From positions 1 to 36,837 of the forward strand of contig CANQAR010000039.1 in assembly GCA_947588845.1 (NCBI GenBank): a DNA stretch of 36,837 nucleotides, in the 5' to 3' direction. The notes under the pieces are model-generated. The model was not told the origin of the DNA and ran no database searches. It worked only from the letters and a program-made list of their open reading frames with translations. Shown here in pieces: positions 4,972-18,149 of the stretch (the first letter of the stretch is position 1; every line of letters begins with the position of its first letter). The DNA is from an uncultured Lachnospiraceae bacterium. Its GTDB lineage: Bacteria > Bacillota > Clostridia > Lachnospirales > Lachnospiraceae. The translations under genes were made by a program, and so were the position numbers.

Positions 4972-6780
4972 TTACGACGTATACAAATAATAAATAGGAT
5001 ATTCTTTTATAAATTCCTGTGTTTCCTTATTCATTTTTTCAAATTCCTGCTTTGCTCTGTCTTTATCTTCCAGCAACACGTTCGCCCCAAAACATATTTG
5101 CGAATCAGAATCTGCAGCGATCTCTTTTAATTCCTGGATGTCCTGCTCCGTAAGGATTTCTCTACGTTTTTTTAATTGTAAGATATTGATTATAAAACAC
5201 GATTTATTCTTCTCTAATTCCTTTATTTTATCAAATTGGTATTGCGCCAATTCCAATGCTTTGCAGTCTTTATTCTCATCAAAAATGGAAATTAATTTTA
5301 ATGCAGCTCGATTTAAATATTCTGCAGTGTATTTATTGACATCTGCACCATCTATCTGTTCTTTTAACCATTCATAATCATAGCGGTAAAGATTTTTAAT
5401 GACATGCGTATCCACATGTTCAAAAAGTGGAACTTTAAAATATTTTCCCTTTTCATCTAATGTTCCTATTCTGAAAGTTTTTGTATAGATAGCGTTATAT
5501 AAATCATTCTCCTCATCATTATCGTGTCGACTTATAATGACGGGAACATACTTATCACCGAGCATCCAGTTGTATATATGAAATTTTTCTGTCAAAAGAC
5601 TATTTTTTAATCCTTTTTTTACACGCACCAAGTCGGCTAACTGCCTCAATTCTTTTTCGTCCGTATCATTTAATGATTTATCAAAATCTAACTCTATCAT
5701 GGAAAGAACATCATCTAAATCCAAATAAAAATTCAATTCTCTCTCAAGTTCTTCTGGCATTGTCGGATTCATATATGAAAAAATAGCATTGTTGATTTTA
5801 AACGCTGTAGACTTCATAACTCTCAATAAAAATTCAGCATCCCGTCTTAATTCTTTAATACCTGTCTTACTTTTGAAATTAAGTTTTCCATTACTTAAAT
5901 CAATCCGCAAATTGGGACTGGGAAGTAAGGCAATCTCGCCATCTGATGTTCCCTCTACTTCATATTTCTCATAATACAGAGTGTCCTCTATAGAAATAGA
6001 TTGTTCTACATTTTTTCGCATAATGAACTTTGCATCTTTTGCCCATTCTATAGGTCTTTCATAAGGATTTCCTTCTGTTTTTCCATAAAGACATATATCC
6101 CCAGAGGCAAATCTTCTTAAAATATCAAGTTCACTATCAGTTCCAGCTACAGTAGCTGAAATTGATTTGACCTTATCCAGATCTTTGAGCATAATCATAT
6201 CTTTTACAAGAGCTACTTCCCCTGTTCCCTGTTTCCTTCTTTCAATGCTAAATTGTTTCACAATTTTGTACAAAACATTCGCATCATTTTCCAGCTTTGT
6301 AAAAGTAATACTTAGGGTAGGATTTTTCGGCCGTATCTTCTTTTTTGCAAGCTTTTCTTCTTTTTCATCAATGTATTTTTTTAACACAGATGGATACAAA
6401 GATGCGTAAAACACTTCCTTATCTTTGCCATCAGGAGACATAAATATTTCAAAATATATAACACCACCTCCTTTGGAATAAATCTTCAAATCAATCAAAT
6501 CAACAGAATATGTTATTCTCTTCCGCCCTAAATACTCCCGTTTCCCACTTCTATTTCTCATCGGATCATCGATGTGACCCTTTATCTGAACCCGTACTTC
6601 ATCATCAAAATTAGTTTTATCAATATTTCCTTCATTGTCTTTAAATATCAGGATAGAACCATCCCAGCTCATTTCCTTATCCAAAGAATTAAATTGATAT
6701 GTCATTGTATTATGGGCATCTATTATGTTTTCCAAGACATTCAATGCTCTGTTCTCTATTTTGGGACTCGGTACAGTCAT
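4972..6780 (-). CDS. DUF4365-like (restriction-nuclease fold) protein at the end of the type I RM operon
   Basis: A long, visibly AT-rich gene with no firmly recognised family. The N-terminal 150 residues fit the DUF4365 pattern: a conserved Asp (WDGSILIF), then VRVQIKG as a QxK-type PD-(D/E)XK half-motif, then a strand-rich stretch (VIYFEIFMS, VFYASLYP). Residues about 300-600 are helical and repeat-like, possibly TPR-like. Two starts are possible. ATG at 6780 (602 residues) has AGGAGG 10 nt upstream and is preferred. ATG at 6810 (612 residues) has a weaker GAGGGA. It follows hsdR by 27-57 bp with no terminator between, so it is probably the last gene of the restriction operon. An accessory nuclease or a guard of HsdR are both conceivable. 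No membrane segment or signal peptide is seen. Confidence 0.7.
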   Translation of the reverse strand: MTVPSPKIENRALNVLENIIDAHNTMTYQFNSLDKEMSWDGSILIFKDNEGNIDKTNFDDEVRVQIKGHIDDPMRNRSGKREYLGRKRITYSVDLIDLKIYSKGGGVIYFEIFMSPDGKDKEVFYASLYPSVLKKYIDEKEEKLAKKKIRPKNPTLSITFTKLENDANVLYKIVKQFSIERRKQGTGEVALVKDMIMLKDLDKVKSISATVAGTDSELDILRRFASGDICLYGKTEGNPYERPIEWAKDAKFIMRKNVEQSISIEDTLYYEKYEVEGTSDGEIALLPSPNLRIDLSNGKLNFKSKTGIKELRRDAEFLLRVMKSTAFKINNAIFSYMNPTMPEELERELNFYLDLDDVLSMIELDFDKSLNDTDEKELRQLADLVRVKKGLKNSLLTEKFHIYNWMLGDKYVPVIISRHDNDEENDLYNAIYTKTFRIGTLDEKGKYFKVPLFEHVDTHVIKNLYRYDYEWLKEQIDGADVNKYTAEYLNRAALKLISIFDENKDCKALELAQYQFDKIKELEKNKSCFIINILQLKKRREILTEQDIQELKEIAADSDSQICFGANVLLEDKDRAKQEFEKMNKETQEFIKEYPIYYLYTS

Positions 6781-6837
6781 AACTTTAAGACCTCCTGACA
6801 CTGAAAACATTAAAATCCCTCAATAACTCCCAAGGCC

Positions 6838-9747
6838 TTAATAATACTGCTCAATATAGCTGTACGCCTTGTCAAAGACTTCCTTATCCTTGATCTTATA
6901 TTTCACCCAGACAACACTGCGTAGGGCCTTTTTGACTTCCTGCCTTCCACCAGTGGTATTCTGCCATCCATCAAAACGGACGATTTTCACAATGTCATCA
7001 ATGTCCGTGACAATCCTTTCCACGATGATGGGAGTATTGGTGTTTTTCACGCCGTTGAAGAGCTCCGTCAGGGCGGCCTTGCCCTTATCAATTTCCTCCT
7101 CCGGCACAACCTCCTTCTCGGCCTGCGCCGCCTCGCGAGCAAGCTCTAACAGCATTTTCAGAAATTCAATGCTATTGATAAGTCCCTGTTCATGCTGTTC
7201 ACGCAATCGCTCCAGCTTATCGCCAAGCCGCATCCATTTCGGATCATCAGTGTGCTTATGGATTCTCGCTACGAGGTCAATTTCGACTTTCTTTGCAGCA
7301 TTTCTGGCTCCTTTATGCTTCTCAATAAACGCATCTATCAGCTCAGCATCGAGAGACAAGACCTCTTCGTCCTCATGAACCTCGCCAACGTCCATATTAG
7401 AGTTTACAATCTCCATCGTCTTCGCTCCAAGTGCAGCCCAGATCAACCCGCCTCCACCATTAGCCGGCTTAACAGATTCATAAACCTTGGTGAGCCACAC
7501 ATAGTCCGGCTGGATCGCAACCAGCATTGGATCAGGAGAAATTGCGTTCCATGCCCGATTCAAAACCTGATAATCGGCTGCAAACTTGTCCTTCTCCGCG
7601 TTGGTGGGCAAGCATTCCTGCGCGGCCATCAAGCCCTCCCAACCGTCTATGGTACGATCAACACCCATAAAATAACTAAGACACTTTCTAAGAAGCGCCG
7701 GTATCTGCTTCTTAACTTCCTCAATATTCGTAATGACCTTCTTCATACTGCCTTCATCGAAGTCCAGAGCTTTGGCCACGTTGTCGAAAATGCCAATATA
7801 ATCCACGATCAACCCATTCGTCTTACCTTCATCATAAGTTCGATTCGTGCGGCAAATTGCCTGCAGCAAGGTGTGATCCTTCATCGGTTTATCTAAGTAC
7901 ATAACCTGCAAAATCGGAGCATCAAAACCGGTCAGAAGCTTTGCCGTAACAATAACAATCTCAAGCGGGTCGTTAGGATCCCTGAAACGGTCAAGAATCT
8001 TCGCTTCCTCATCTTTGGAACGCCGGTATGCTTTGTATTCGTCCGCTTTATCATCATTGGTATCCATGACGATTGTAGAGCAATCAGGACCCAGAAGCTT
8101 ATCCAACTCCGTTTTATATTTGATACAGCAAGGGCGGTCATAAACAACCACCTGGGCCTTATATCCATTCGGACGTATCTTCTCGGTGAAGTGCTTTGCA
8201 ATATGCGCACATACTTTGTGGATACGTTTTTCATTGTACATAATGGCTTGCATATTGACACGTTTTGAAAGTTCAGCCTTATCCGAATCCGAAAGATCAC
8301 GTGTCAGAATATCAAACTCACGATCCATTGTATCTCTGTCTACGCGAAGATCCACCGGTACCGGCTCGAAATTAAGCGGCAGCGTCGCATGGTCACGAAT
8401 AGAATCCGAGAAAGAATATTTGCTCATATATCCGCTGCGGTCTTCTGTTGCACCAAATGTTGCAAATGTATTCTTGTCCAAACGGTTGATCGGTGTACCC
8501 GTCATACCAAAGAAAAATGCATTCGGAAGAGCCGTCCTCATCTTGATACCAAGATCGCCTTCCTGCGTTCTGTGACATTCATCCACCATTACGATGATGT
8601 TATCGCGCGGACTAAGCTCGCTGGTAACTTCCTGAAAACGGAAGATAGTCGTAATGATAATTTTTCGAATATCCTGGCGAAGCATCGTCATCAGCTGATC
8701 TCGGGTAGAAGCAGACTCCAGGTTACCCACATCGGACGAATGAAACTGTGCCGTAATCTGCGATTCCAGATCCAATCGATCGTCAACAATGATAACCGTC
8801 GGATTCTTAAGTTCCGGAAGCATCCGAAGCTTCACTGCTGCAAATTCCATAAGGTAAGATTTACCGGACCCCTGGAAGTGCCAGATAAGACCCTTTTTGG
8901 GATAGCCGGCACATACACGTTCGATGATCATGTTCGCACCTTCGTACTGCTGATAGCGAGCAATCACCTTGTATTTACGATATTTGTTATCAGTCGCATA
9001 AAGCGTGAAGAACTGGAACAAGTCCATGATCTTATACTTAGTGATCATGTCCTGCACGCTGGTCTGCACTGCAGCCAAAGAACCATCAGATTTGTCATCC
9101 GTCGTATGCCAAGGACCATACTTAGCTGCCGGCATACAAACAGAACCGTAGCGGTAGCACTTGCCTTCTGTAGCAAAATTAAACACATTCGTTACAAACA
9201 TCTGCGGAATACTTTGCTCGTACTTGTTGATATCCTGGGCTCCATCCAGCCATGTGATAGCAGCGCGCACTGGAGTCTTCAACTCACCAATGGCAAACGG
9301 GAAACCATTAACCAGAAGAACAATATCCAGTCTCTTGCCGCCTTCTTTTTTCGGATACACCCACTGATTCGTTACTACATACTGGTTTCGATTCAGCTTG
9401 CCATTAATCTCTGTTCCAAAAATGTCAATGGATACCTGCCTGCCATCTTTACCAAACGGATAAGAATTTTTCTCAAAAACCATCTGCTTAAAAGCCTCGT
9501 TCTGCGTCACCAGGTTCTGTGCATTGGTAGAGAGGAAAAGGGTACGCAGCTTATATATGATCTCATCTGCCCGTGATTCGTCCTCTGCAATTTCAGGGTT
9601 AAGTCTTATAAGCGCATCACGCACCATAGGCTCCACCATGACATCACTTTCTTCTCTGTCAAGATCATCTGCTGAGATATACTCCCAGCCGTTTCTCCTG
9701 AGCGTAGAAATAATCAGCTGCTCAGTCGTGTTGTCTTCATTAAACAT
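6838..9747 (-). CDS. hsdR: Type I restriction enzyme subunit R (HsdR)
   Basis: A 969-residue translocase/nuclease subunit that cuts unmodified DNA after ATP-driven translocation in complex with HsdM2-HsdS. The N-terminal nuclease domain has DIVLLVNGFPFAIGELK (PD-(D/E)XK), matching the HSDR_N family. The SF2 helicase motor has Walker A QGSGKS (K296), motif II VDECH (D389), motif III GMTGTP, and motif VI around QAICRTNR. The length is typical. The ATG at 9747 follows AGGAGG by 8 nt. It lies 109 bp downstream of the recombinase and is followed closely by the DUF4365-like gene. All motor and nuclease motifs are intact, so the system should be able to restrict. Confidence 0.96.
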   Translation of the reverse strand: MFNEDNTTEQLIISTLRRNGWEYISADDLDREESDVMVEPMVRDALIRLNPEIAEDESRADEIIYKLRTLFLSTNAQNLVTQNEAFKQMVFEKNSYPFGKDGRQVSIDIFGTEINGKLNRNQYVVTNQWVYPKKEGGKRLDIVLLVNGFPFAIGELKTPVRAAITWLDGAQDINKYEQSIPQMFVTNVFNFATEGKCYRYGSVCMPAAKYGPWHTTDDKSDGSLAAVQTSVQDMITKYKIMDLFQFFTLYATDNKYRKYKVIARYQQYEGANMIIERVCAGYPKKGLIWHFQGSGKSYLMEFAAVKLRMLPELKNPTVIIVDDRLDLESQITAQFHSSDVGNLESASTRDQLMTMLRQDIRKIIITTIFRFQEVTSELSPRDNIIVMVDECHRTQEGDLGIKMRTALPNAFFFGMTGTPINRLDKNTFATFGATEDRSGYMSKYSFSDSIRDHATLPLNFEPVPVDLRVDRDTMDREFDILTRDLSDSDKAELSKRVNMQAIMYNEKRIHKVCAHIAKHFTEKIRPNGYKAQVVVYDRPCCIKYKTELDKLLGPDCSTIVMDTNDDKADEYKAYRRSKDEEAKILDRFRDPNDPLEIVIVTAKLLTGFDAPILQVMYLDKPMKDHTLLQAICRTNRTYDEGKTNGLIVDYIGIFDNVAKALDFDEGSMKKVITNIEEVKKQIPALLRKCLSYFMGVDRTIDGWEGLMAAQECLPTNAEKDKFAADYQVLNRAWNAISPDPMLVAIQPDYVWLTKVYESVKPANGGGGLIWAALGAKTMEIVNSNMDVGEVHEDEEVLSLDAELIDAFIEKHKGARNAAKKVEIDLVARIHKHTDDPKWMRLGDKLERLREQHEQGLINSIEFLKMLLELAREAAQAEKEVVPEEEIDKGKAALTELFNGVKNTNTPIIVERIVTDIDDIVKIVRFDGWQNTTGGRQEVKKALRSVVWVKYKIKDKEVFDKAYSYIEQYY

Positions 9748-9856
9748 GTGAGTAACCTCCTGTATTGATCTATTATCTTATAATTATTTTGCAGTAATAA
9801 TTTTGATTTGAACACATCTGAGTAACAAGTTTTGAATTATATACAAGCACAAGTCT

Positions 9857-10834
9857 CTATCCAATGTATTTACGATGCGACTCCTTCACATTGTTCTGAT
9901 TCACCATCGCGTACTGAAGCGTTGTATCAATACTTTGATGCCCAAGAAGCTGCTGCACTTGTTCAATCGGCATACCTTTGTCAATCGCCATCGTCGCCAG
10001 TGTTCTGCGAAATTTATGTGGATGTACTTTATGTAAGTTTAACTCTCGCCCAATTTTTCGAAGGCGAATTTCTACTCCGCTAATCTGTAATCGTTCAAAT
10101 GGTTTGAGCAGTGATACAAACAACGCGTCATTCTGATCAGTCCGCTCGGCCAGATACCTTTGCAGATGAATTTTCGTGCGGGCATCAAAGTAAACTTTAC
10201 GTTCCTTATTGCCTTTTCCAAATACAATACATTCTCTGTTGTCAAAGTCCACGTCATCACGATTGAGCTTTACCAGCTCCCCAACACGGATTCCTGTTGA
10301 GGCCAGCAAATCAATCATCGCAAGATCCCGTGTATTGTCGCAATGATCACGCATCAGTTCCAACGATTCGTCTGTATAGGTTTCTTTTACCGTTTTACCA
10401 GTCTTAACTTTGTGTATTCTTCTAACAGGACTTTTAATTATGTAATCTTCATCCTCAAGCCAGGCAAAGAAACTGGACAGAATGCGTCTTACATTATCGA
10501 GGGTCACTTTGCTCACCGTCCCCCGTCGCTGATATGTATCGAGATACGAACGAAGATCTTCTGTTGTTATTTGACATTCCGGCTTACTGATGCTTTCCAG
10601 CATATTCCGGATTGTAGATTCATAATAACGTAGAGATTTTTTTGAGCATCCTTCGATGCGCTTTGCAGCCATAAAGATGGGAAGCAGGTCAGGTTTCTCT
10701 GTTGTACTTTTGTTCTCTATCTCTTCAAATTGAGATAAGTGCTTTTGTAGTACCTCCAAGAGACACTTCATCTGGTTTTCATCTAAAATTCTGCTAAGAT
10801 CATTCTGGATTTTGGTTATTACTTGACTGATCAT
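9857..10834 (-). CDS. Tyrosine recombinase linked to hsdS (specificity switching)
   Basis: A 325-residue XerC/D-like integrase. The start is ATG 10834 behind GGAGG (8 nt), rather than the in-frame ATG at 10897, which has no good site. An N-terminal SAM-like core-binding domain (about 40-130) precedes the catalytic domain, which has all active-site residues: R183 (GIRVGE), K in GKGNKERK, H273 and R276 (HPHKFRR), H299 (LLGH) and nucleophile Y308 (LQYAM). It sits between hsdS and hsdR in the same operon. That placement is known for recombinases that rearrange hsdS recognition domains, rather than for integrases of mobile elements. No attachment sites of an integrated element were seen around it. 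The likely target here is the 15-bp repeat shared by the two hsdS genes. Confidence 0.9.
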   Translation of the reverse strand: MISQVITKIQNDLSRILDENQMKCLLEVLQKHLSQFEEIENKSTTEKPDLLPIFMAAKRIEGCSKKSLRYYESTIRNMLESISKPECQITTEDLRSYLDTYQRRGTVSKVTLDNVRRILSSFFAWLEDEDYIIKSPVRRIHKVKTGKTVKETYTDESLELMRDHCDNTRDLAMIDLLASTGIRVGELVKLNRDDVDFDNRECIVFGKGNKERKVYFDARTKIHLQRYLAERTDQNDALFVSLLKPFERLQISGVEIRLRKIGRELNLHKVHPHKFRRTLATMAIDKGMPIEQVQQLLGHQSIDTTLQYAMVNQNNVKESHRKYIG

Positions 10835-10908
10835 GATTGTTTCCTCCTTTTCATTCCCTCCGTTTCCGGTATTACCACGAACCAGAGGAAACTTCATGAC
10901 CTCATTCC

Positions 10909-12042
10909 TTAGCCAAGATTTTCTTTTATGATACGTTTATAGGTAGCAACAAGCTCTGAAAGTGCCTGTTCTATTTCAAATTTTGATTTATCGCTTTGGC
11001 GGACGAAGGACATAAATTGCTGCTGCAAGGTTATTGGGGGAACTATTGCTTCCAACTTTTGTATTTTCCCTTGAAAAAGATTAGCTTGCGAAGTTTGGCT
11101 TTTTGACGCTTCAATCTGCTTTTGTGTATATGGCATCATAATCATCTGCTCCATGAATTCGGGCAGTATACACTCCTGCAAACGTATCAGGGCAACGCTA
11201 CGAACCATTTGAAAACGCAGGCCAACAGGAACAACACAGGCCCTTCCCACAGTTCCTGAGCATGAAATTAGAATATCTCCCGCTTTTGGAATAATTCTTT
11301 TTGCGATTCTTTCATATTCGGCTTCATCTATGTAATCCACTTCATCAAAAGACAGTTTATGATTTAGAACATTTCGGGCTGACAACAAATAAATCCCGTG
11401 TTCGCTTCTTTTTGGTGTTGCATGTTCTCCATCTGTAATTACCGAGCAGATATTTTCATATCGTTCTTTTCTCCATCCCATAGGATTACTTTCGGGATTT
11501 CCAAACATCTCGATAAATTGAGACTTGACAAGCTCATCCGTTGCAGAAATCAATTCTTTGTATGAATCCATCGTTTCATTCATAGCCCACAATACTGTAG
11601 CCAGGCGACGTTGTGTATCAAGATCTGGAAGCTCAAATTCCAATTCTTTCAAATCACGCCAGTTAATTGTCGGTGACAACGAACCGACAGAAATCTTTAT
11701 CGCAACATCCAAAAAATAATCTGAGCTAATAAACAAGGGAAAGAAGTTCTTATCTATCACATCCTCTTTCGGCCTTAATACCATGCCATGCGCAGAAAAT
11801 ATTCCATCAAAAGGTGCAATAGCAACCTTTTTCTGATAAGCTCTTCGTTTTCCAAAAAGAACATCCCCCTTACGCATGATCAGTTTCTCTCCAATCGGCG
11901 CTACTTCAGAACCATATCGCGTAACCTTAAGACTGCCAGAATCTAAATGCTCCAAACCAAGGTAGGTGAAGCGATCTTCTTCAACTGGTTTTTTCTTCTC
12001 AGTACTATTTATTGCAATCTGATCAAATCGATATTTTGCCAT
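10909..12042 (-). CDS. hsdS: Type I specificity subunit HsdS, full length (two recognition domains)
   Basis: A 377-residue HsdS that determines which DNA sequence is methylated and cut. Two target recognition domains (about residues 5-140 and 195-330) are each followed by a conserved helix; the central spacer reads ATDELVKSQFIEMFGN. The start is ATG 12042, which overlaps the stop of the upstream half-hsdS as TAATG and has AAGGTG upstream. A longer frame from 12081 lies inside the previous gene and is not used. The first domain resembles the half-HsdS upstream (for example YxGLEHL, FGxRRAYxKK and GSLSP are shared), so the two are paralogous cassettes. The recombinase gene follows 74 bp downstream. 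Confidence 0.93.
   Translation of the reverse strand: MAKYRFDQIAINSTEKKKPVEEDRFTYLGLEHLDSGSLKVTRYGSEVAPIGEKLIMRKGDVLFGKRRAYQKKVAIAPFDGIFSAHGMVLRPKEDVIDKNFFPLFISSDYFLDVAIKISVGSLSPTINWRDLKELEFELPDLDTQRRLATVLWAMNETMDSYKELISATDELVKSQFIEMFGNPESNPMGWRKERYENICSVITDGEHATPKRSEHGIYLLSARNVLNHKLSFDEVDYIDEAEYERIAKRIIPKAGDILISCSGTVGRACVVPVGLRFQMVRSVALIRLQECILPEFMEQMIMMPYTQKQIEASKSQTSQANLFQGKIQKLEAIVPPITLQQQFMSFVRQSDKSKFEIEQALSELVATYKRIIKENLG
11509..11523 (-). repeat. 15-bp direct repeat, copy in full hsdS (probable crossover site)
   Basis: CTCGATAAATTGAGA (as read on the plus strand) covers the SQFIE codons in the spacer between the two recognition domains. The identical 15-mer occurs at 12099-12113 in the half-hsdS, in the same orientation and codon frame. 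Flanking bases diverge quickly on one side. Confidence 0.8.
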
Positions 12043-12626
12043 TATGCGCACCTTCTTCCAGAAGTAACATGAATGGTCCATCGCCCATGATCAGCAGGCT
12101 CGATAAATTGAGATTTCACCAATTCATCTGTTGCTTCAATCAGTTCACGATAAGCTTTCTTTGTCTCAGTAATCGCCCACAAAAGCTCTGCAAGCTCCTT
12201 TTGCTTGTCCATGTCCGGCAACTCGAACTCATAGTTCTTAAGATGTTCCCACTTGACACGCGGAGAAAGAGATCCGGCAGATTTACCTACCGCAAAATCA
12301 AACAAATCATCATTCTGAATGATGAATGGCAGAAGTTCCGGAAAAATTTTATCTGGATCAGCCTCTATCACGGTAATATCTCCAGAGCAAATTCCGTCAA
12401 ACGGAGCCACGGCAGCCTTCTTAAGATAAGCACGCCTACGTCCAAACAAAACATTCCCCTTGCGGAACATTTTCGTAAAAGTATTCTCGGTGTCCTCACT
12501 CCATCTCGTAAGCGTAATTTCCCCAGAAATCAAGTGTTCCAGTCCTACAATGGGATACCCTTCCCTGCCTCCTTTACAGGTTTCCTTATGTTCATGAGCG
12601 ACATCTCCCAGTAAAACTCTAGGCAT
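12042..12626 (-). CDS. hsdS: Half-length HsdS (single recognition domain, truncated at the spacer)
   Basis: A 194-residue HsdS with one recognition domain and the following helix. Homology to HsdS ends exactly at KSQFIE; the last residues (PADHGRWTIH onward) are unrelated. The ATG at 12626 is preferred: it overlaps the end of hsdM2 (ATGCCTAG) and has AAGGCGG upstream; a GTG at 12635 is in frame. Half-HsdS proteins can dimerise to give a palindromic specificity, so it may be active alone. It may equally be a silent cassette awaiting fusion to the second half of the downstream hsdS. Homology ending exactly at the 15-bp repeat supports truncation by recombination there. Confidence 0.88.
   Translation of the reverse strand: MPRVLLGDVAHEHKETCKGGREGYPIVGLEHLISGEITLTRWSEDTENTFTKMFRKGNVLFGRRRAYLKKAAVAPFDGICSGDITVIEADPDKIFPELLPFIIQNDDLFDFAVGKSAGSLSPRVKWEHLKNYEFELPDMDKQKELAELLWAITETKKAYRELIEATDELVKSQFIEPADHGRWTIHVTSGRRCA
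12099..12113 (-). repeat. 15-bp direct repeat, copy in half-hsdS (probable crossover site)
   Basis: Identical to 11509-11523 and co-oriented. Codon phase is the same in both genes: each Glu codon ends at the first base of the repeat. Deletion of the 590 bp between them would therefore create an in-frame 375-residue HsdS. Confidence 0.8.
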
Positions 12627-14112
12627 CCTTCTCACCGCCTTTCTTAATCATTTCATTCAGAATCGTATAATACTTGAGCGCCCGTTCAGAAAATGCTCGC
12701 CAGCTTTCATAATGCTGCTGCAATGTATAGGTATCAACGTCTGAATCTTCAACAGCCGGTTTCACATACAGAGGAATGCTTAAAGAAAAATTATTCTCCT
12801 CGATGTCCTTTATAGTGGCCGTCTGCGCAAAGCCATCAATATTCTTATAATCTGCATATGCATCAGCTATTTTCTTTATATGGGTATCGGTCAGATAACT
12901 CTGCGCATTTTTGCGTTCCACATCGCTCACTGCATTGATAAACAGCACTTTACCACGGCGATCCACCGCTTTATTCATACGACAGATCATAATGCATGCC
13001 TCCATCGGCGAATTATAAAACAGATTTGGCGCGAGTCCTATCACACACTCTACATAATCACCGCGCACCAGCTTTTCACGCATATCACTCTCCTCATTGC
13101 GGAACAGAACTCCGTGAGGAAAGAGAATGGCACAACGTCCAGTCTTTTCATCCAGACTCTTTATAATGTGCTGCAGAAAAGCGTAATCTGCACGTCCCTG
13201 CGGAGGAACACCGAGAAAATTCCGTCCATATTTATCCGCTGAAAAAGCATCACGATTCCACTCTTTGATGGAATATGGCGGATTCGCCAGTACCAGGTCG
13301 AAGGTTTTCAGTTTGCCGCGTTCGATAAATGCCGGTGCCGCAAGGGTGTCACCATTTACAATCTGAAAATCCTCGATTCCATGGAGAAACAGATTCATTC
13401 TCGCGATAGCGGCAGTCAGCGCATTTATCTCCTGTCCATAAAGAGACACATTCCTCCACTCTTTTTTCTGATTCTTCAAATAAGAAATCGAAGAGATCAG
13501 CATTCCGGCACTTCCACAAGTAGGATCATAAATAGCTTCTCCTGACTCTGGTTTCAACATTTCTGTCATAAGATGCACTACAGTTCTATTCGTATAGAAC
13601 TCCTGCGCCGTATGGCCGCTGTCATCAGCAAACTGCTTGATAAGATACTCATATCCCTGTCCGAGCTCATCCTCCGGACAATTCTCTATTGACAGTGTCT
13701 TTGAGCTGAAATGTTCCAGCAGGTCCTTCAAAAGCCGGTCAGGAAGGCGTCTTTTATTCGTCCATGTGCCGTCTCCAAAGATTCCTGTCAGCTTGTCACT
13801 GTTTGCACTCTCGATAGCTCGGAATGCTTCCTGAATCGCTTTTCCGACATTCTCAGGAACATTTCTGACATCATCCCAATGTGCTCCATCCGGAATCGTA
13901 TAATTATGTGTTTCCTCCCAGTCAGCAGCTTCCGGTCCATTATCTTTAACCGCATTTTCTGTTTCTTCCTCATACACATCGTTAAGTCGCTTAAAGAATA
14001 ACAGTGGAAAAATGTACTGTTTATACGCCCCTGCATCGATATGGTTTCTCAGGAGGACAGCCGAGCCCCAAAGATACGATTCCAGCTCTTCCTGTGTAAT
14101 TTTTTTATTCAT
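12619..14112 (-). CDS. hsdM: Type I modification subunit HsdM (second copy)
   Basis: A 497-residue N6-adenine methyltransferase that uses S-adenosylmethionine and pairs with HsdS. It has the N-terminal helical HsdM domain (about 10-130), motif I DPTCGSAG (D196) and catalytic motif IV NPPY (N277), followed by RADYAFLQHI and FPHGVLFR segments typical of HsdM. It starts at ATG 14112, overlapping the end of the fusion gene by 8 bp, with GGAGG 8 nt upstream inside that gene, so translation is probably coupled. It directly precedes the hsdS genes and is the best candidate for the standard M subunit. It is recognisably different from the HsdM part of the upstream fusion. Confidence 0.95.
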   Translation of the reverse strand: MNKKITQEELESYLWGSAVLLRNHIDAGAYKQYIFPLLFFKRLNDVYEEETENAVKDNGPEAADWEETHNYTIPDGAHWDDVRNVPENVGKAIQEAFRAIESANSDKLTGIFGDGTWTNKRRLPDRLLKDLLEHFSSKTLSIENCPEDELGQGYEYLIKQFADDSGHTAQEFYTNRTVVHLMTEMLKPESGEAIYDPTCGSAGMLISSISYLKNQKKEWRNVSLYGQEINALTAAIARMNLFLHGIEDFQIVNGDTLAAPAFIERGKLKTFDLVLANPPYSIKEWNRDAFSADKYGRNFLGVPPQGRADYAFLQHIIKSLDEKTGRCAILFPHGVLFRNEESDMREKLVRGDYVECVIGLAPNLFYNSPMEACIMICRMNKAVDRRGKVLFINAVSDVERKNAQSYLTDTHIKKIADAYADYKNIDGFAQTATIKDIEENNFSLSIPLYVKPAVEDSDVDTYTLQQHYESWRAFSERALKYYTILNEMIKKGGEKDA

Positions 14113-16522
14113 TTACATAGCCTCCTTCGATGAGCAGAGCTCTCATTTTCTCTTCGGACTTACGAACTTTCATAAGCGCTTCGTAGTATGCCTGCAGTAC
14201 CTTTTCATGTGGAACAACTTCTTTTGCTTTCTGTTCAATATATTTTTTAACGCTAAGCTCGAAACCGCCTTTTTCTACATCCTCAATCGTGACGATCCTG
14301 CACTTTTCGATGACATCTTCATAATCAGTATAGAGCTTATAAAGCGCTGCAACATTATCCGGCGAAATAATATTCTGCGCCCGCTGCGGTGTATAAATTT
14401 CAGTCCCATCAATCAGACAGATCCGGCCTTTATGCTTGTGTTCTTTCTTATTGCTGAGGAACAAGATACAGGCAGATACACCAGTGCTGTAAAACACTCC
14501 ACTTGCCAGTGTAATAACAGCTTCCAATTTATCAGAACGCACAAGCTGTTCACGGATACTGCCTTCTTTTCCTGAATGAAACAATACACCCTGTGGAAGA
14601 ACCACTGCGCATCTGCCATTCTTCGAATCCATTGATTTAATCATGTGCTGAAGCCACGCAAAATCCGCACTGGAGTCAGAAGGGCATCCCCAGATGTTAC
14701 GTCCGTACTGATCGGACTCAAATTGTCCCGCTCCCCACTTTTCCATGCCAAATGGCGGATTGGCAAGGACACAGTCAAAGGTCTTCAGTTTCCCTTTTTC
14801 AAGGAATAACGGATTCCTCAAGGTGTCTCCCTGCTTCACCTGAACATCCTTTGCCCCGTGAAGATACAAATTCATGCGGGCAATGGCAGAAGTAGAAAGA
14901 TTGTTTTCTTGTCCGAAAATTCTGCCATAAGCTAATCGATCATTGTTCATATGATGTATTGCTTCTATAAGCATTCCGCCTGTACCGCAAGCTGGATCAT
15001 ACACAGTCTCCCCTGGCTTCGGATCAAGCAAATCCACCATCAGTTTTACAATGGGCCTCGGCGTATAAAATTCTCCGGCATTTTTCTTTGACATATCTGC
15101 AAATTTCTTAATCAGAAATTCATAACTGTCTCCCATAATATCCGCAGAATAATTCTTATTTCCAACCTTGATAAGAGACATATGCTCGATCAAATTTTTA
15201 AGACGCTCATCAGTCAGTTTATTTTTATCGGTCCAGGTCGCATCGTCAAAACTGCTGAAAACACCTGACAAAGTATCCGGATTCGCTTTCTCAATACCAG
15301 TCATCGCATTGACGATTGCTTTTCCTACATTCTGGCTTACCATGCGGACATCATTCCAATGGCATCCTTCTGGTATTACGAAAGAATGCATATCCTCGGC
15401 TTCTGCATATTCAACATCGCCATCTGAAAACTCCAATGCCTCCTCATATTCTTCATCATAGACATCCGATATACGCTTAAAAAACAGTACTGGTGTCACA
15501 TAACTCTTAAACTCATCCTGATTGATAGGTCCCCGAAGAATATTGCACGCCTCAAACAGATGACTAAAAAGCTGACGGCTTGTTGTTTCTTTCTTAGCAT
15601 ATTCAGCATTCGCCATGTCCTCATTCGCCGCTTGAACAGCTTCCTCAATTATTGTTTCGCGATCCGAACCTTTAACTTTGCGCCTGGTTTTACGTTTTAT
15701 TGGTACACTGATATCACCAGTCCTCTTTTCCATTACAGGAGGATACTTATTTTCAAATGTTACTAGAATCTTTAGTAACCTTTTGTCCAAAAAAGTAAGA
15801 ACGTGCTTTCTGATCTCAGACGGAACACCATAATACGCCTCAGCAACACCACCACATATGGCCGCCAGTGTATCGCTGTCGCCGCCGATAGAAATCGCGT
15901 TCCTTATCGCATCTTCAAAACCAGTTGACTCAAAAAATGCCATCAATGCCTGCGGAACTGTGCCCTGGCAGGTTACATCGAACTTATATGCAGTTCTGAT
16001 CCCATCCAACATAAAGTTCATTGGATAGTAATTCTTATCGATATAATCTCTGATCTCCAGAAGACTGCTGCCAGTCCTGGCCATGTATATAGCGACCGCA
16101 GTTGCCTCAGCACCTTTGATTCCTTCCGGATGATTATGTGTTACCTCAGTAATCTTCCTGGAGATTTCTTTTGCATTTTCGAGACTGTCAGCCGCAAAAC
16201 CGGCCGCGCTCACACGCATGGCTGCACCATTGCCAAAACTATTATAAGGCTTCGGATTGTCCGAGAACATCCATTCATAGAATCTTCCTCCATAGCCGCA
16301 GTCAGGATAGTTGCGTCCCACGGACTGCATGCATTCAACTGCATTCTTTGCCAGGTCGCTATGATCCGGTCTGCTGATCAGAATTGCCTGCGCAAGTGCC
16401 AGAGTCATAATACTGTCGTCGGTGGGAAAGCACTTATATGTAAGAAAATCAAAATCCTTACTCTTAATGTTATTCCATTCAAAACGCGACCCCACAATGT
16501 CTCCGATAATCGCTCCTATCAT
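14105..16522 (-). CDS. hsdM: ADP-ribosylglycohydrolase-HsdM fusion protein
   Basis: An 805-residue two-part protein. Residues 1-275 form a complete ADP-ribosylglycohydrolase (DraG/ARH) domain: GAIIGDIVGSRFE, the metal-binding TDDS (T34, D35, D36), SFGNGAAMR, HNHPEGIKGA, and GGDSDT (D215, D217). This family removes ADP-ribose from proteins or nucleic acids. Residues about 310-800 are a full HsdM: helical N-domain, motif I DPACGTGG (D509), catalytic NPPF (N588), then a C-terminal helical tail. A charged, Arg/Lys-rich linker (about 276-310) joins them. The frame is continuous, with one start (ATG 16522 behind AAAGGAGG) and no internal ribosome site visible at the junction. It lies 16 bp after the methylase-TRD gene and overlaps hsdM2 by 8 bp. 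All catalytic residues look intact in both parts. Confidence 0.92.
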   Translation of the reverse strand: MIGAIIGDIVGSRFEWNNIKSKDFDFLTYKCFPTDDSIMTLALAQAILISRPDHSDLAKNAVECMQSVGRNYPDCGYGGRFYEWMFSDNPKPYNSFGNGAAMRVSAAGFAADSLENAKEISRKITEVTHNHPEGIKGAEATAVAIYMARTGSSLLEIRDYIDKNYYPMNFMLDGIRTAYKFDVTCQGTVPQALMAFFESTGFEDAIRNAISIGGDSDTLAAICGGVAEAYYGVPSEIRKHVLTFLDKRLLKILVTFENKYPPVMEKRTGDISVPIKRKTRRKVKGSDRETIIEEAVQAANEDMANAEYAKKETTSRQLFSHLFEACNILRGPINQDEFKSYVTPVLFFKRISDVYDEEYEEALEFSDGDVEYAEAEDMHSFVIPEGCHWNDVRMVSQNVGKAIVNAMTGIEKANPDTLSGVFSSFDDATWTDKNKLTDERLKNLIEHMSLIKVGNKNYSADIMGDSYEFLIKKFADMSKKNAGEFYTPRPIVKLMVDLLDPKPGETVYDPACGTGGMLIEAIHHMNNDRLAYGRIFGQENNLSTSAIARMNLYLHGAKDVQVKQGDTLRNPLFLEKGKLKTFDCVLANPPFGMEKWGAGQFESDQYGRNIWGCPSDSSADFAWLQHMIKSMDSKNGRCAVVLPQGVLFHSGKEGSIREQLVRSDKLEAVITLASGVFYSTGVSACILFLSNKKEHKHKGRICLIDGTEIYTPQRAQNIISPDNVAALYKLYTDYEDVIEKCRIVTIEDVEKGGFELSVKKYIEQKAKEVVPHEKVLQAYYEALMKVRKSEEKMRALLIEGGYVNE

Positions 16523-16538
16523 TTATCGTTATCCTCCT

Positions 16539-18149
16539 TTAAAACGACTGCAGCCTTTTCAAAACTTCGCACCAGCGCTGTTCTGCAGCCGCCACCGTTT
16601 CTTTGTATTTTTTTAATTCATCGTTATACTCTTTTACCACTGCCTGCTGCTTCTTCATATCAGGAAGCGGTACCTCAAGTACATTCAAATCCTTGTAACT
16701 AATACTCATTATAATCGCGCCTTGCTGGGCATCACATATCATTTTGTTTCCAATTGGGCTATCGAGAAATATTTTCAAATAGTAACTATCCAGCTTTTTC
16801 TGGTCTGGTCGTATAATGATCACATTCGATGATGCTATACATGGATAATCTTGTTTATGAAAGACCGCTATTCTGATTGCGGTCCCTCTTGCCGGCAGAA
16901 GTACATCACCTTCCTGGAGCAGGTAATTTGCAACCTTACGTTCCTCTTCCTGCAGATGATCCAATCCTTCGTAATTAATGTCATAGTTACCAATATTGGA
17001 AATATTCACAACGCCGATGTTTCCAGTCGGGTCTTTTTTACTAACAGCTTTACCTCTAAAAATCTGTGCCACATTACCAATAAGTTCTTTACGCACACCG
17101 GATCTCTGAAAATTAAGGTATTCCTCATCCTGCTGTGCAAAGATGCGGTCAATGCTCCAGTCACCCTGTTCCTCAAGTTCATTTAGCATCACAAAAGTAT
17201 CATCTGTAACCTTGAGGGAAGTAACTGCAGATCTTTTTGTCTTACGTTCACCCGCCGAATATCTGCGAACGATGATGTCATCATCTCCGGGGCGAGTATT
17301 CTCGATATCCAGCAAGTATATTTTAATTCCGGTACATTCAAGTGATCCTTCAGGGAGTTCAGCAATTTCCCTAATTGTGTAACTTGCCTGAATAAACTGT
17401 CTCAGATCCCCGACCTTACCGGAAGCAAATGTGATTCTGCCCGGAAGTGTTATCATCAAACGTCCACCACTGTTAAGATGAAGAGAAAGGTTCTCCAAGG
17501 CTACCATCTCAAACTCTCTGCACATAAATGTCTTGTCCTCAGCTAGTGTTCTTCCTCCAAAATTAGGGCAGGAGAAAATAAGATCGAAACGTCTGTTCAT
17601 GAACTCATATTGGTAAATATTTGCCAAAACAATTTCCACATTTTCGTAATCAGCAAAAACATATTCCAAAGCTTTCGCGTAGATTGCATTCTGCGTCGTC
17701 AGCACGAATTTTGAATTAATGTTCTCATCTACCATTCGCAGAAGATTTGGAACAAATTTTTCAGCCTCTGCAATAAGAACTGTTTCCGGCTCGATCGAAA
17801 AACGTTCTTCAAAAACTTTAATAATAGGCATTGGAAGAACAGGCATTTTCGAAAAACGCTCTATATTTTCGATTGCACTTTCCCAATCCGTCTTTTGGAT
17901 CTGTTTGCCTTCTTTGTATATAAAGAAAAATTTTTCTTTGTCGGAGAACGGATTCCCAATGCGCAATTCATCTGTTACTTCTAAGAGAACCGAATAAACC
18001 GTATCCTCATTCTCCTGTATTTTTGTATTTGTCAATCTGTTCTTTACTTCATTTACGAGAACGGCAGCCACAATATAATTGTTTGGGGACACTGCCCCTC
18101 TCATAATATCCCAATATGCCATAATCTTTCTTTCCTGATCTTTATTCAT
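16539..18149 (-). CDS. Degenerate N6-adenine methylase fused to HsdS-like recognition domain
   Basis: A 536-residue first gene of the operon. Residues about 120-290 resemble an N6 DNA methylase fold, but the catalytic motif IV, normally NPPY/F, reads SCPNFGG (N196 region), and motif I is not recognisable around VLTTQNAIYA. Methyl transfer is therefore doubtful. Residues about 345-510 match one HsdS recognition domain (GNVAQIFRGK, EGDVLLPARGTA, SSNVIIIRP, LEVPLPDMKKQQAVV) followed by a coiled-coil tail. The ATG at 18149 has GGAG 7 nt upstream and lies about 40 nt after the -10 box. It may give the fusion HsdM a third recognition domain, or act as a DNA-binding regulator. Some stand-alone 'N-6 DNA methylase' proteins have a similar layout. 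Confidence 0.8.
   Translation of the reverse strand: MNKDQERKIMAYWDIMRGAVSPNNYIVAAVLVNEVKNRLTNTKIQENEDTVYSVLLEVTDELRIGNPFSDKEKFFFIYKEGKQIQKTDWESAIENIERFSKMPVLPMPIIKVFEERFSIEPETVLIAEAEKFVPNLLRMVDENINSKFVLTTQNAIYAKALEYVFADYENVEIVLANIYQYEFMNRRFDLIFSCPNFGGRTLAEDKTFMCREFEMVALENLSLHLNSGGRLMITLPGRITFASGKVGDLRQFIQASYTIREIAELPEGSLECTGIKIYLLDIENTRPGDDDIIVRRYSAGERKTKRSAVTSLKVTDDTFVMLNELEEQGDWSIDRIFAQQDEEYLNFQRSGVRKELIGNVAQIFRGKAVSKKDPTGNIGVVNISNIGNYDINYEGLDHLQEEERKVANYLLQEGDVLLPARGTAIRIAVFHKQDYPCIASSNVIIIRPDQKKLDSYYLKIFLDSPIGNKMICDAQQGAIIMSISYKDLNVLEVPLPDMKKQQAVVKEYNDELKKYKETVAAAEQRWCEVLKRLQSF

Follow-up and report, generated by a model that had tools for sequence, protein, structure and literature searches.

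An ADP-ribosylhydrolase-like domain fused to the predicted M1 subunit of a PacII-like type I restriction-modification system in a Lachnospiraceae genome

Why would a DNA methyltransferase subunit carry a domain of an ADP-ribose-removing family at its N-terminus? The question is raised by one gene in the window analyzed here, a 36,837-nucleotide stretch (contig CANQAR010000039.1) from an uncultured Lachnospiraceae bacterium (Table 1). Read on the minus strand, the gene runs for 805 codons with no stop; the plus-strand reading of the same stretch encounters stops. Pfam recognizes ADP_ribosyl_GH at residues 1-233 (E=7.5e-33), HsdM_N at 320-448 (E=1.8e-22) and N6_Mtase at 459-767 (E=5.9e-92), all well outside chance expectation, and the motifs TDDS, GGDSDT, DPACGTGG and NPPF stand at 34-37, 213-218, 509-516 and 588-591. 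A preliminary description had read this frame as a complete DraG/ARH-type domain joined to a complete HsdM, and frame, domains and motif positions all agree. We found no description of an ARH-HsdM architecture in the open-licence PMC literature that was searched.

Table 1. Features of the fusion gene and its neighborhood (positions in the window)
Feature	Position	Strand	Evidence
612-aa protein, function not known	4972..6810	-	27 bases past hsdR; phrog_9827 (unknown function) 2.1e-41
HsdR	6838..9747	-	HSDR_N 8.5e-26; SWI2_SNF2 4.1e-66; TIGR00348 above cut-off
Xer-like tyrosine recombinase	9857..10897	-	Phage_integrase 2.5e-33; recomb_XerA_Arch above cut-off
HsdS with two TRD stretches	10909..12081	-	Methylase_S 4.8e-18, two stretches
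Half-length HsdS, one TRD	12042..12635	-	Methylase_S 1.6e-5; PADLOC Specificity_I 1.2e-62
Second HsdM (M2, NPPY)	12619..14112	-	N6_Mtase 2.4e-93; NPPY in sequence; 8-base overlap with fusion gene
ARH-HsdM(M1) fusion gene, 805 aa	14105..16522	-	single open frame; three Pfam domains; 14 full-length proteins of same architecture
HsdM M1 part, residues 313-805 (HsdM_N + N6_Mtase; DPACGTGG, NPPF)	14108..15586	-	Pfam; PacII M1 best solved relative
Variable linker, residues 263-312	15587..15736	-	low pairwise identity among fusions
ARH3-like ADP-ribosylhydrolase domain, residues 1-261	15740..16522	-	
D215 S216 D217 T218, includes counterparts of ARH3 D314 D316 T317	15869..15880	-	phmmer alignment to ARH3 and PMC8141533 ligand table; 14/14 fusions
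T34 D35 D36, counterparts of ARH3 ligands T76 D77 D78	16415..16423	-	phmmer alignment to ARH3; PMC8141533 ligand table; 14/14 fusions
pMS: degenerate HsdM-like half and single-TRD half-HsdS, fused	16539..18149	-	16 bases upstream of fusion gene

The fusion of ARH to a complete HsdM is real and no assembly accident, because it exists in 14 distinct full-length copies, the window's protein included, one of them from Dorea sp. 5-2, a named strain (NZ_KE159724.1). The aligned copies have no internal stops, and there is no stop or frameshift near residues 276-310; with Dorea sp. 5-2 and other loci carrying the fusion, homologues do not always encode the two domains separately. Many carriers are metagenome-assembled, by their record titles. 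Damaged copies were also seen: the fusion in L203 (genome G685) is interrupted where the frame changes near residue 597, the ARH of L156 (G361) is followed by a small M1 fragment, and in L090 the ARH frame decays past about residue 212, losing the second metal motif, and the few hundred bases that remain of the contig hold no M1. No plasmid or phage record covers 80% of the fusion, and E. coli genomes gave no megablast match. Since no more than two or three candidates were scored in each genome searched, the number of fusions may be an underestimate.

Ahead of the ARH start stands a Shine-Dalgarno sequence, AAAGGAGG; a second, GAAGGAGG, lies before M2 within the 3' end of the fusion gene. Two internal starts that would yield an ARH-less M1 find no support: Met264 is present in 10 of the 14 fusions with no Shine-Dalgarno-like stretch before it, and Met303 in only one.

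The ARH half scores 114.9 bits against profile PF03747 (gathering threshold 26.2). The binuclear metal ligands of ARH3 are T76, D77, D78, D314, D316 and T317 (PMC8141533); residues were matched through a phmmer alignment to ARH3, with a numbering offset of 16 derived by comparing alignments. All six counterparts (T34, D35, D36, D215, D217, T218) are kept in every fusion. Mean identity over the 91 pairs of fusions is 0.74 for ARH, 0.72 for HsdM and 0.32 for the linker, and dN/dS within ARH is about 0.03. By these measures the ARH part is under strong constraint, conserved like HsdM. It looks like an intact ADP-ribose-removing enzyme domain, and would presumably act as a hydrolase.

What kind of methyltransferase carries it? 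The best solved relative of the HsdM half is the M1 subunit of PacII (7vru_A, phmmer E=7.2e-138; 35% identity in structural alignment). In PacII and other non-canonical type I systems, M1 is described as producing m6A and M2 as producing m4C (PMC9613975). The gene order after the fusion is M2, S, recombinase and R, and every one of 16 other loci having both M1 and M2 shows the NPPF/NPPY pair seen in the window. Judged from sequence, the HsdM half belongs to a PacII-like system with two M subunits, in which it is the NPPF-bearing M1. The preliminary description was right in seeing a complete HsdM and overlooked both its place in a two-M (m6A/m4C type) system and the pseudo-methyltransferase/TRD gene upstream. 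The window's predicted system resembles PacII in having two different HsdM subunits plus S and R, but differs in the N-terminal ARH on M1 and in the extra upstream gene. The predicted structure of the whole fusion lacks confidence in its HsdM half (mean pLDDT 65, pTM 0.45), so we do not take the placement of ARH on HsdM from it. Text searches for the identity of 'Esub1' in 8vsq returned nothing relevant.

The recombinase adjoins hsdS in many relatives too. Phase-variation repeats at the S genes were sought and rejected: there are no inverted repeats in 9700-12700, and one 84-nt direct repeat reaches 71%. At E 0.001 the 612-aa protein is matched by none of Pfam, PADLOC and NCBIfam, and a different, unrelated gene family sits after hsdR in L016, L042 and L175; membership of the 612-aa protein in the restriction system is uncertain.

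The upstream gene, pMS, precedes 12 of the 14 fusions, and all six viral-contig matches to it lie beside an ARH-M1; it is also found in ordinary type I operons. The idea of a fusion-specific partner is weakened: within the same genome sample, seven of nine genomes with pMS gave no fusion (E 1e-120). Five of the seven have pMS directly before a single canonical hsdM; of the remaining loci, L196 shows no hsdM and L204 is truncated where its contig stops. The pMS of G249 (L202) has no relative of the window's restriction-modification genes in 17 kb. The 447-aa upstream gene of the unfused locus L039, having no pMS-profile match, was rejected as a pMS relative; an adjoining 209-aa gene matches the profile weakly. 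The TRD half of pMS is poorly modelled in its predicted structure.

Close M1 relatives that lack ARH exist (L011, L022, L023, L155), and ARH-less M1s fall inside the same clade as the fused ones, so the enzyme can dispense with the domain. A single clade of fused M1s is not supported, as the best M1 tree needs six changes, two of them forced by well-supported branches; the tree drew the program's long-branch warning and scores L021 as unfused though its contig begins inside the gene.

A Pfam scan of nine window proteins recognized no ADP-ribosyltransferase family; a very divergent one would escape it, and the 612-aa protein was unmatched. Six genomes that hold the fusion in complete, cut, broken or remnant form yielded no DarT (PF14487; the control matched in 1 of 14), and PF01129 matched nowhere, with control genomes likewise silent, so that this silence says little about transferases in the genomes. 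KptA occurs in one of those six genomes, and the window's genome has one. To our knowledge no phage transferase has been reported to modify type I enzymes, and the portions of the literature searched named none either. Among stand-alone ARH relatives, the nearest-branching sits among vWA, CpsB-like and Macro genes, the nearest by identity (L048/L157, 74%) has no neighbor of the searched kinds, and L036 (62%) adjoins KptA. No such neighbor was seen for 102 of 116 stand-alone rows, many of these loci having a 1.5 kb flank only. The fused loci and the window hold no relative of the L083 vWA, L083 CpsB-like, L169 Macro or L036 KptA proteins, so the gene setting of the stand-alone relatives is not transferable to the fusions.

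We tentatively propose, as the likeliest reading though at somewhat below an even chance, that the ARH is an on-board eraser that strips ADP-ribose placed by an invader's or rival's transferase on the restriction complex or adjacent macromolecules. The fusion gene would supply the predicted adenine-methylating M1 of a PacII-like enzyme, with one ARH per M1-M2-S complex by subunit composition. A transferase of an invading element or rival would ADP-ribosylate the complex or macromolecules nearby, and the ARH would remove the modification, allowing methylation and restriction to continue. The hydrolase activity, the complex or its surroundings as substrate, and a phage, conjugative element or toxin as attacker are each presumed. 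The architecture, its conservation, the intact ligands, the operon, the absence from it of a recognized transferase partner and the ADP-ribose-processing settings of some relatives are what we observe in its favor, and make protection from ADP-ribosylating enzymes, raised in the preliminary description, probably the best-supported of its suggestions. Against it stand the ARH-less M1s of the same clade, the many stand-alone rows without telling neighbors, the nearest relative by identity among them, the lack of such neighbors at the fused loci, the want of a reported phage transferase acting on type I enzymes, the KptA in the window's genome and the 612-aa neighbor of no known family.

Another reading, rather unlikely in our judgment, is that nucleic acid is the substrate of the ARH: carried along DNA by M1-M2-S, it would there remove ADP-ribose from phosphate ends and possibly bases, leaving sites recognizable, methylatable and cuttable. 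The ARH does ride on a DNA-clamping subunit, SCO5809 and ARH3 are reported to hydrolyze phosphate-end ADP-ribose on nucleic acid, and KptA, which neighbors one relative and occurs in the window's genome, is named as a family ADP-ribosylating such ends; but the same source gives ARH-like enzymes as inactive on guanosine-base ADP-ribose (PMC11833690), and the six genomes yielded no DarT and a single KptA-bearing member. A bolder version, quite unlikely, would have the M1-M2-S clamp scan DNA while the ARH removes marks, making ADP-ribose a third chemical state, next to methylated and unmethylated, by which self is told from non-self. The earlier analogy with DarTG is weak. DarG is not of the ARH fold, and so the likeness of an ADP-ribose eraser tied to DNA is offset by a different eraser fold as well as by the lack of DarT in the six genomes. 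Macrodomain, ARH/DraG and NADAR are treated as separate families (PMC11833690).

It is unlikely, too, that the ARH confers immunity on the cell as a whole or on a mobile element, merely sharing transcript and polypeptide with M1 and not acting on the complex. Stand-alone relatives do occur in many contexts, some fused to unrelated domains (GNAT in L056, DUF6508 in L109), and within 10 kb of five fused loci (L016, L020, L079, L154, L179) lie recombinase or conjugation genes; yet the fused form is kept in 14 distinct loci, with both domains constrained while the linker diverges. Very unlikely is a sensor of ADP-ribose or a derivative that uses the HsdM N-terminus to gate the complex and links restriction to NAD breakdown in infection; nothing observed here speaks for the coupling of modification to NAD state raised in the preliminary description. 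The N-terminal segment of EcoK HsdM is described as governing the methylation-state decision (PMC12707154) and the metal ligands are intact, but a pure sensor would not need every one of them, and ARH domains have been argued to prefer macromolecular conjugates (PMC9503650, section 3.4.2). That the fusion is an artefact of assembly or annotation, or rides along as a passive passenger, is largely refuted: metagenome-assembled carriers, broken copies and unfused M1s might suggest it, but invariant ligands and the low ARH dN/dS across distinct full-length copies, one from a named strain, leave it scarcely credible.

The on-board eraser has partial parallels. ARG-centred operons have been predicted to counter viral ADP-ribosylation (Iyer et al. 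2022, PMC9503650, section 3.8), and share with our loci an ARH without a recognized transferase and, at some stand-alone relatives, vWA and Macro neighbors; the fused loci differ in lacking relatives of those neighbors and in holding the ARH inside a type I enzyme. From ARH3, DraG and ARH1 the window's domain differs in being fused to a DNA methyltransferase subunit with no adjacent transferase recognized.

The fusion physically joins two chemistries of bacterial conflict, DNA methylation-restriction and reversible ADP-ribosylation. Related systems share it, and restriction systems may, it suggests, bring their own defense against viral or toxin tagging. If the eraser protects the enzyme, mobile elements or rivals would attack restriction complexes by ADP-ribosylation, an attack of which we know of no demonstration, and this system is ready for testing. 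Whatever the true substrate, the fusion indicates where to look for it.

The window carries an ADP-ribosylhydrolase of the ARH3-like type (ARH) joined to the HsdM subunit of a type I restriction-modification system (M1), and this ARH-HsdM fusion is real and conserved. The preliminary description had read the gene as one continuous frame, and so it is: 805 codons run without a stop, the start codon of ARH has a Shine-Dalgarno sequence upstream, and Pfam recognises both domain types (ADP_ribosyl_GH, residues 1-233, 7.5e-33; HsdM_N, 320-448, 1.8e-22; N6_Mtase, 459-767, 5.9e-92). The motifs it had named (TDDS, GGDSDT, DPACGTGG and NPPF) each lie at the residues it gave. We found no description of the architecture in the open-licence PMC papers that were searched.

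We aligned 14 distinct full-length fusion proteins, leaving out duplicates, the G160 fragment, the broken L203 and L090, and L021/L043, whose contig starts within M1. That such homologues exist contradicts the possibility that ARH and HsdM are always encoded apart. T34, D35, D36, D215, D217 and T218 are invariant in all 14 and align with T76, D77, D78, D314, D316 and T317, reported as the metal ligands of ARH3 (PMC8141533), while residue 37 is serine in 12 and threonine in two. Mean identity over the 91 pairs is 0.74 for ARH, 0.32 for the linker and 0.72 for HsdM. The ratio dN/dS could be computed in six of 15 comparisons and not in the other nine: window against Dorea (ARH 0.026, linker 0.10, HsdM 0.015) and L077 against L079 (ARH 0.033, linker 0.145), these five at dS of 1.2 to 2.3, and the ARH of L016 against L042 (0.018 at dS 4.0). 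These data show an intact-looking ARH joined to M1 and under selection.

At least three of 299 genomes in the family sample encode the fusion (the window's own, G000, then G018, and G160, whose copy is truncated at the contig end). The class sample (391 genomes) yielded at least one more, G589, and a genome with ARH only, G361; the phylum sample (398 genomes) added G685, where the frame is broken. Five of 20 loci from a search of genome contigs carry the fusion. One belongs to Dorea sp. 5-2, three come from bacteria labelled Lachnospiraceae, Erysipelotrichaceae and Phascolarctobacterium sp., and the fifth is a Eubacterium fragment with the same sequence as that of G160. Eight viral contigs hold it whole, one with a gene identical to that of Dorea; the 'viral' label is doubtful for L079 and L081/L179 because they carry a gene for a serine recombinase, or genes for conjugation and relaxase.

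In a midpoint-rooted tree built from the ARH domains of 14 fusions and 77 stand-alone proteins (91 in all), the fusions and the stand-alone ARH of G361 form a clade (support 100/99), which fits one single fusion event. In G361 a 42-residue M1 fragment begins 18 bases past the ARH stop (55% identity, E 1e-8); this ARH is a deletion remnant of the fusion. A tree of M1 with 33 rows intermixes fused and unfused proteins: its best version has six changes, of which two are forced. Such mixing is consistent with ARH having been lost later or with the linker having been a site of recombination.

Genes of the restriction operon and its flank, in order along the minus strand
Gene	Coordinates	Strand	Remark
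pMS	18149-16539	minus	upstream of ARH-M1
ARH-M1 fusion	16522-14105	minus	M1 with NPPF
M2 (second HsdM)	14112-12619	minus	NPPY; 8-base overlap with ARH-M1
half-length S (HsdS)	12635-12042	minus	
S	12081-10909	minus	
Xer-like recombinase	10897-9857	minus	
R (HsdR)	9747-6838	minus	
612-aa protein	6810-4972	minus	directly after R; no family match except phrog_9827 (function unknown)
Fic gene	4416-3274	minus	beyond gap after 612-aa gene

Among proteins of solved structure, M1 of PacII is the best match to the fused HsdM (7vru_A, 7.2e-138); in PacII, M1 is reported to make m6A and M2 m4C inside an M1-M2-S complex (PMC9613975). The window also has distinct M1 and M2 genes; this likeness and the NPPF and NPPY motifs therefore mark it, by gene content, as a predicted two-M, non-canonical type I system. 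The Fic-domain protein near the operon matches the PADLOC phage-defence candidate PDC-S72 (2.3e-172). A single gene family follows hsdR in three other fused loci (L016 20752-22415, L042 9694-11643, L175 10398-11212), with an HExxH-like stretch and what we take to be an ImmA/IrrE look; the L042 member ends in an HTH. The family does not match the 612-aa protein of the window significantly. Many relatives place a recombinase and extra S fragments beside hsdS (window 9857-12635; L016, L021, L044, L079, L155), which suggests shuffling of S; no inverted repeats were found in the window's S/recombinase region.

The pMS protein joins a degenerate HsdM-like half to one HsdS-type domain (TRD), as in L197, L198, L199, L200 and L201; its TRD resembles 'Esub1' of PDB 8vsq. 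Several ordinary type I operons have a pMS gene immediately ahead of hsdM, and the family is a possible accessory of such systems. The unfused two-M locus L039 (3586-5539) has two separate upstream genes, one for a divergent N6_Mtase of 447 aa and one for a single-TRD-like protein of 209 aa; together they resemble pMS split into two. In L078 (2335-5873) three additional genes separate pMS from the fusion, and one of them encodes a Schlafen group 3 helicase domain. At L090 (1389-7150), pMS and hsdR accompany an ARH frame that has decayed and is without the second metal motif; the few hundred bases that remain up to the contig end hold no M1.

The stand-alone ARH branching nearest the fusions (L082, L083 alike; 71% identity, support 97/71) belongs to a run of genes encoding vWA, CpsB-like, ARH and Macro proteins, the vWA match of L083 being weak (PF00092, E 7e-4, below cut-off) and its CpsB match strong. 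The nearest by identity (L048/L157, 74%) has neighbours matching no family in our list. Listed neighbours occur, within 6 kb or the available flank, in 14 of 116 stand-alone rows (same-DNA duplicates counted) and in none of the other 102. Combinations include vWA and Macro (L169/L070, L115, L116), vWA (L112), Macro beside ARH-DUF6508 (L109) and KptA (L036/L012). Restriction neighbours among the 14 are raw occurrences: hsdR and hsdM in L173, an N6_Mtase-TRD protein at 3.8 kb in L205, an HsdR-like protein at 3.5 kb in L111, and L090, the broken fused-type locus itself. The maps also show ARH-DUF6508 flanked on one side by an AAA_5 gene and on the other by a ResIII helicase with Eco57I methylase (L164), and ARH preceded by a PLD-ResIII helicase gene (L163). 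Long C-terminal extensions occur on L056, L060, L063, L058/L164, L109 and L114; Pfam identifies GNAT in L056 and DUF6508 in L109 and, below cut-off, in L164 (which includes L058), and the others were assigned by appearance alone.

Iyer et al. 2022 (PMC9503650, section 3.8) report operons built around ARH that include vWA, Macro and phosphatase genes and contain no transferase, and predict that they reverse viral ADP-ribosylation; the runs in L082/L083, L169/L070, L115 and L116 likewise place vWA and Macro beside ARH. The words methylase, methyltransferase, HsdM and restriction-modification are absent from that paper's main text.

The fused operon has no recognised transferase, and we infer that its ARH half is an eraser acting on the complex or its DNA. 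Erasure of DNA-linked ADP-ribose, which we rank second and consider unlikely, draws on a report that ARH-like enzymes remove phosphate-linked ADP-ribose, but the same source reports that they do not remove the guanosine-linked form (PMC11833690). An analogy with DarTG had been suggested for such a role, and it is weakened by the finding of DarT in none of the six genomes with the fusion whole or cut (G000, G018, G160, G589), broken (G685) or reduced to a remnant (G361); KptA turned up in a single genome of this set, that of the window. Cell-wide immunity, ranked third, seems somewhat less probable still, and ligand gating of the complex, fourth, is improbable. We tentatively favour protection of the complex against ADP-ribose applied from outside, in which the fused ARH would clear such externally applied ADP-ribose from the restriction complex.
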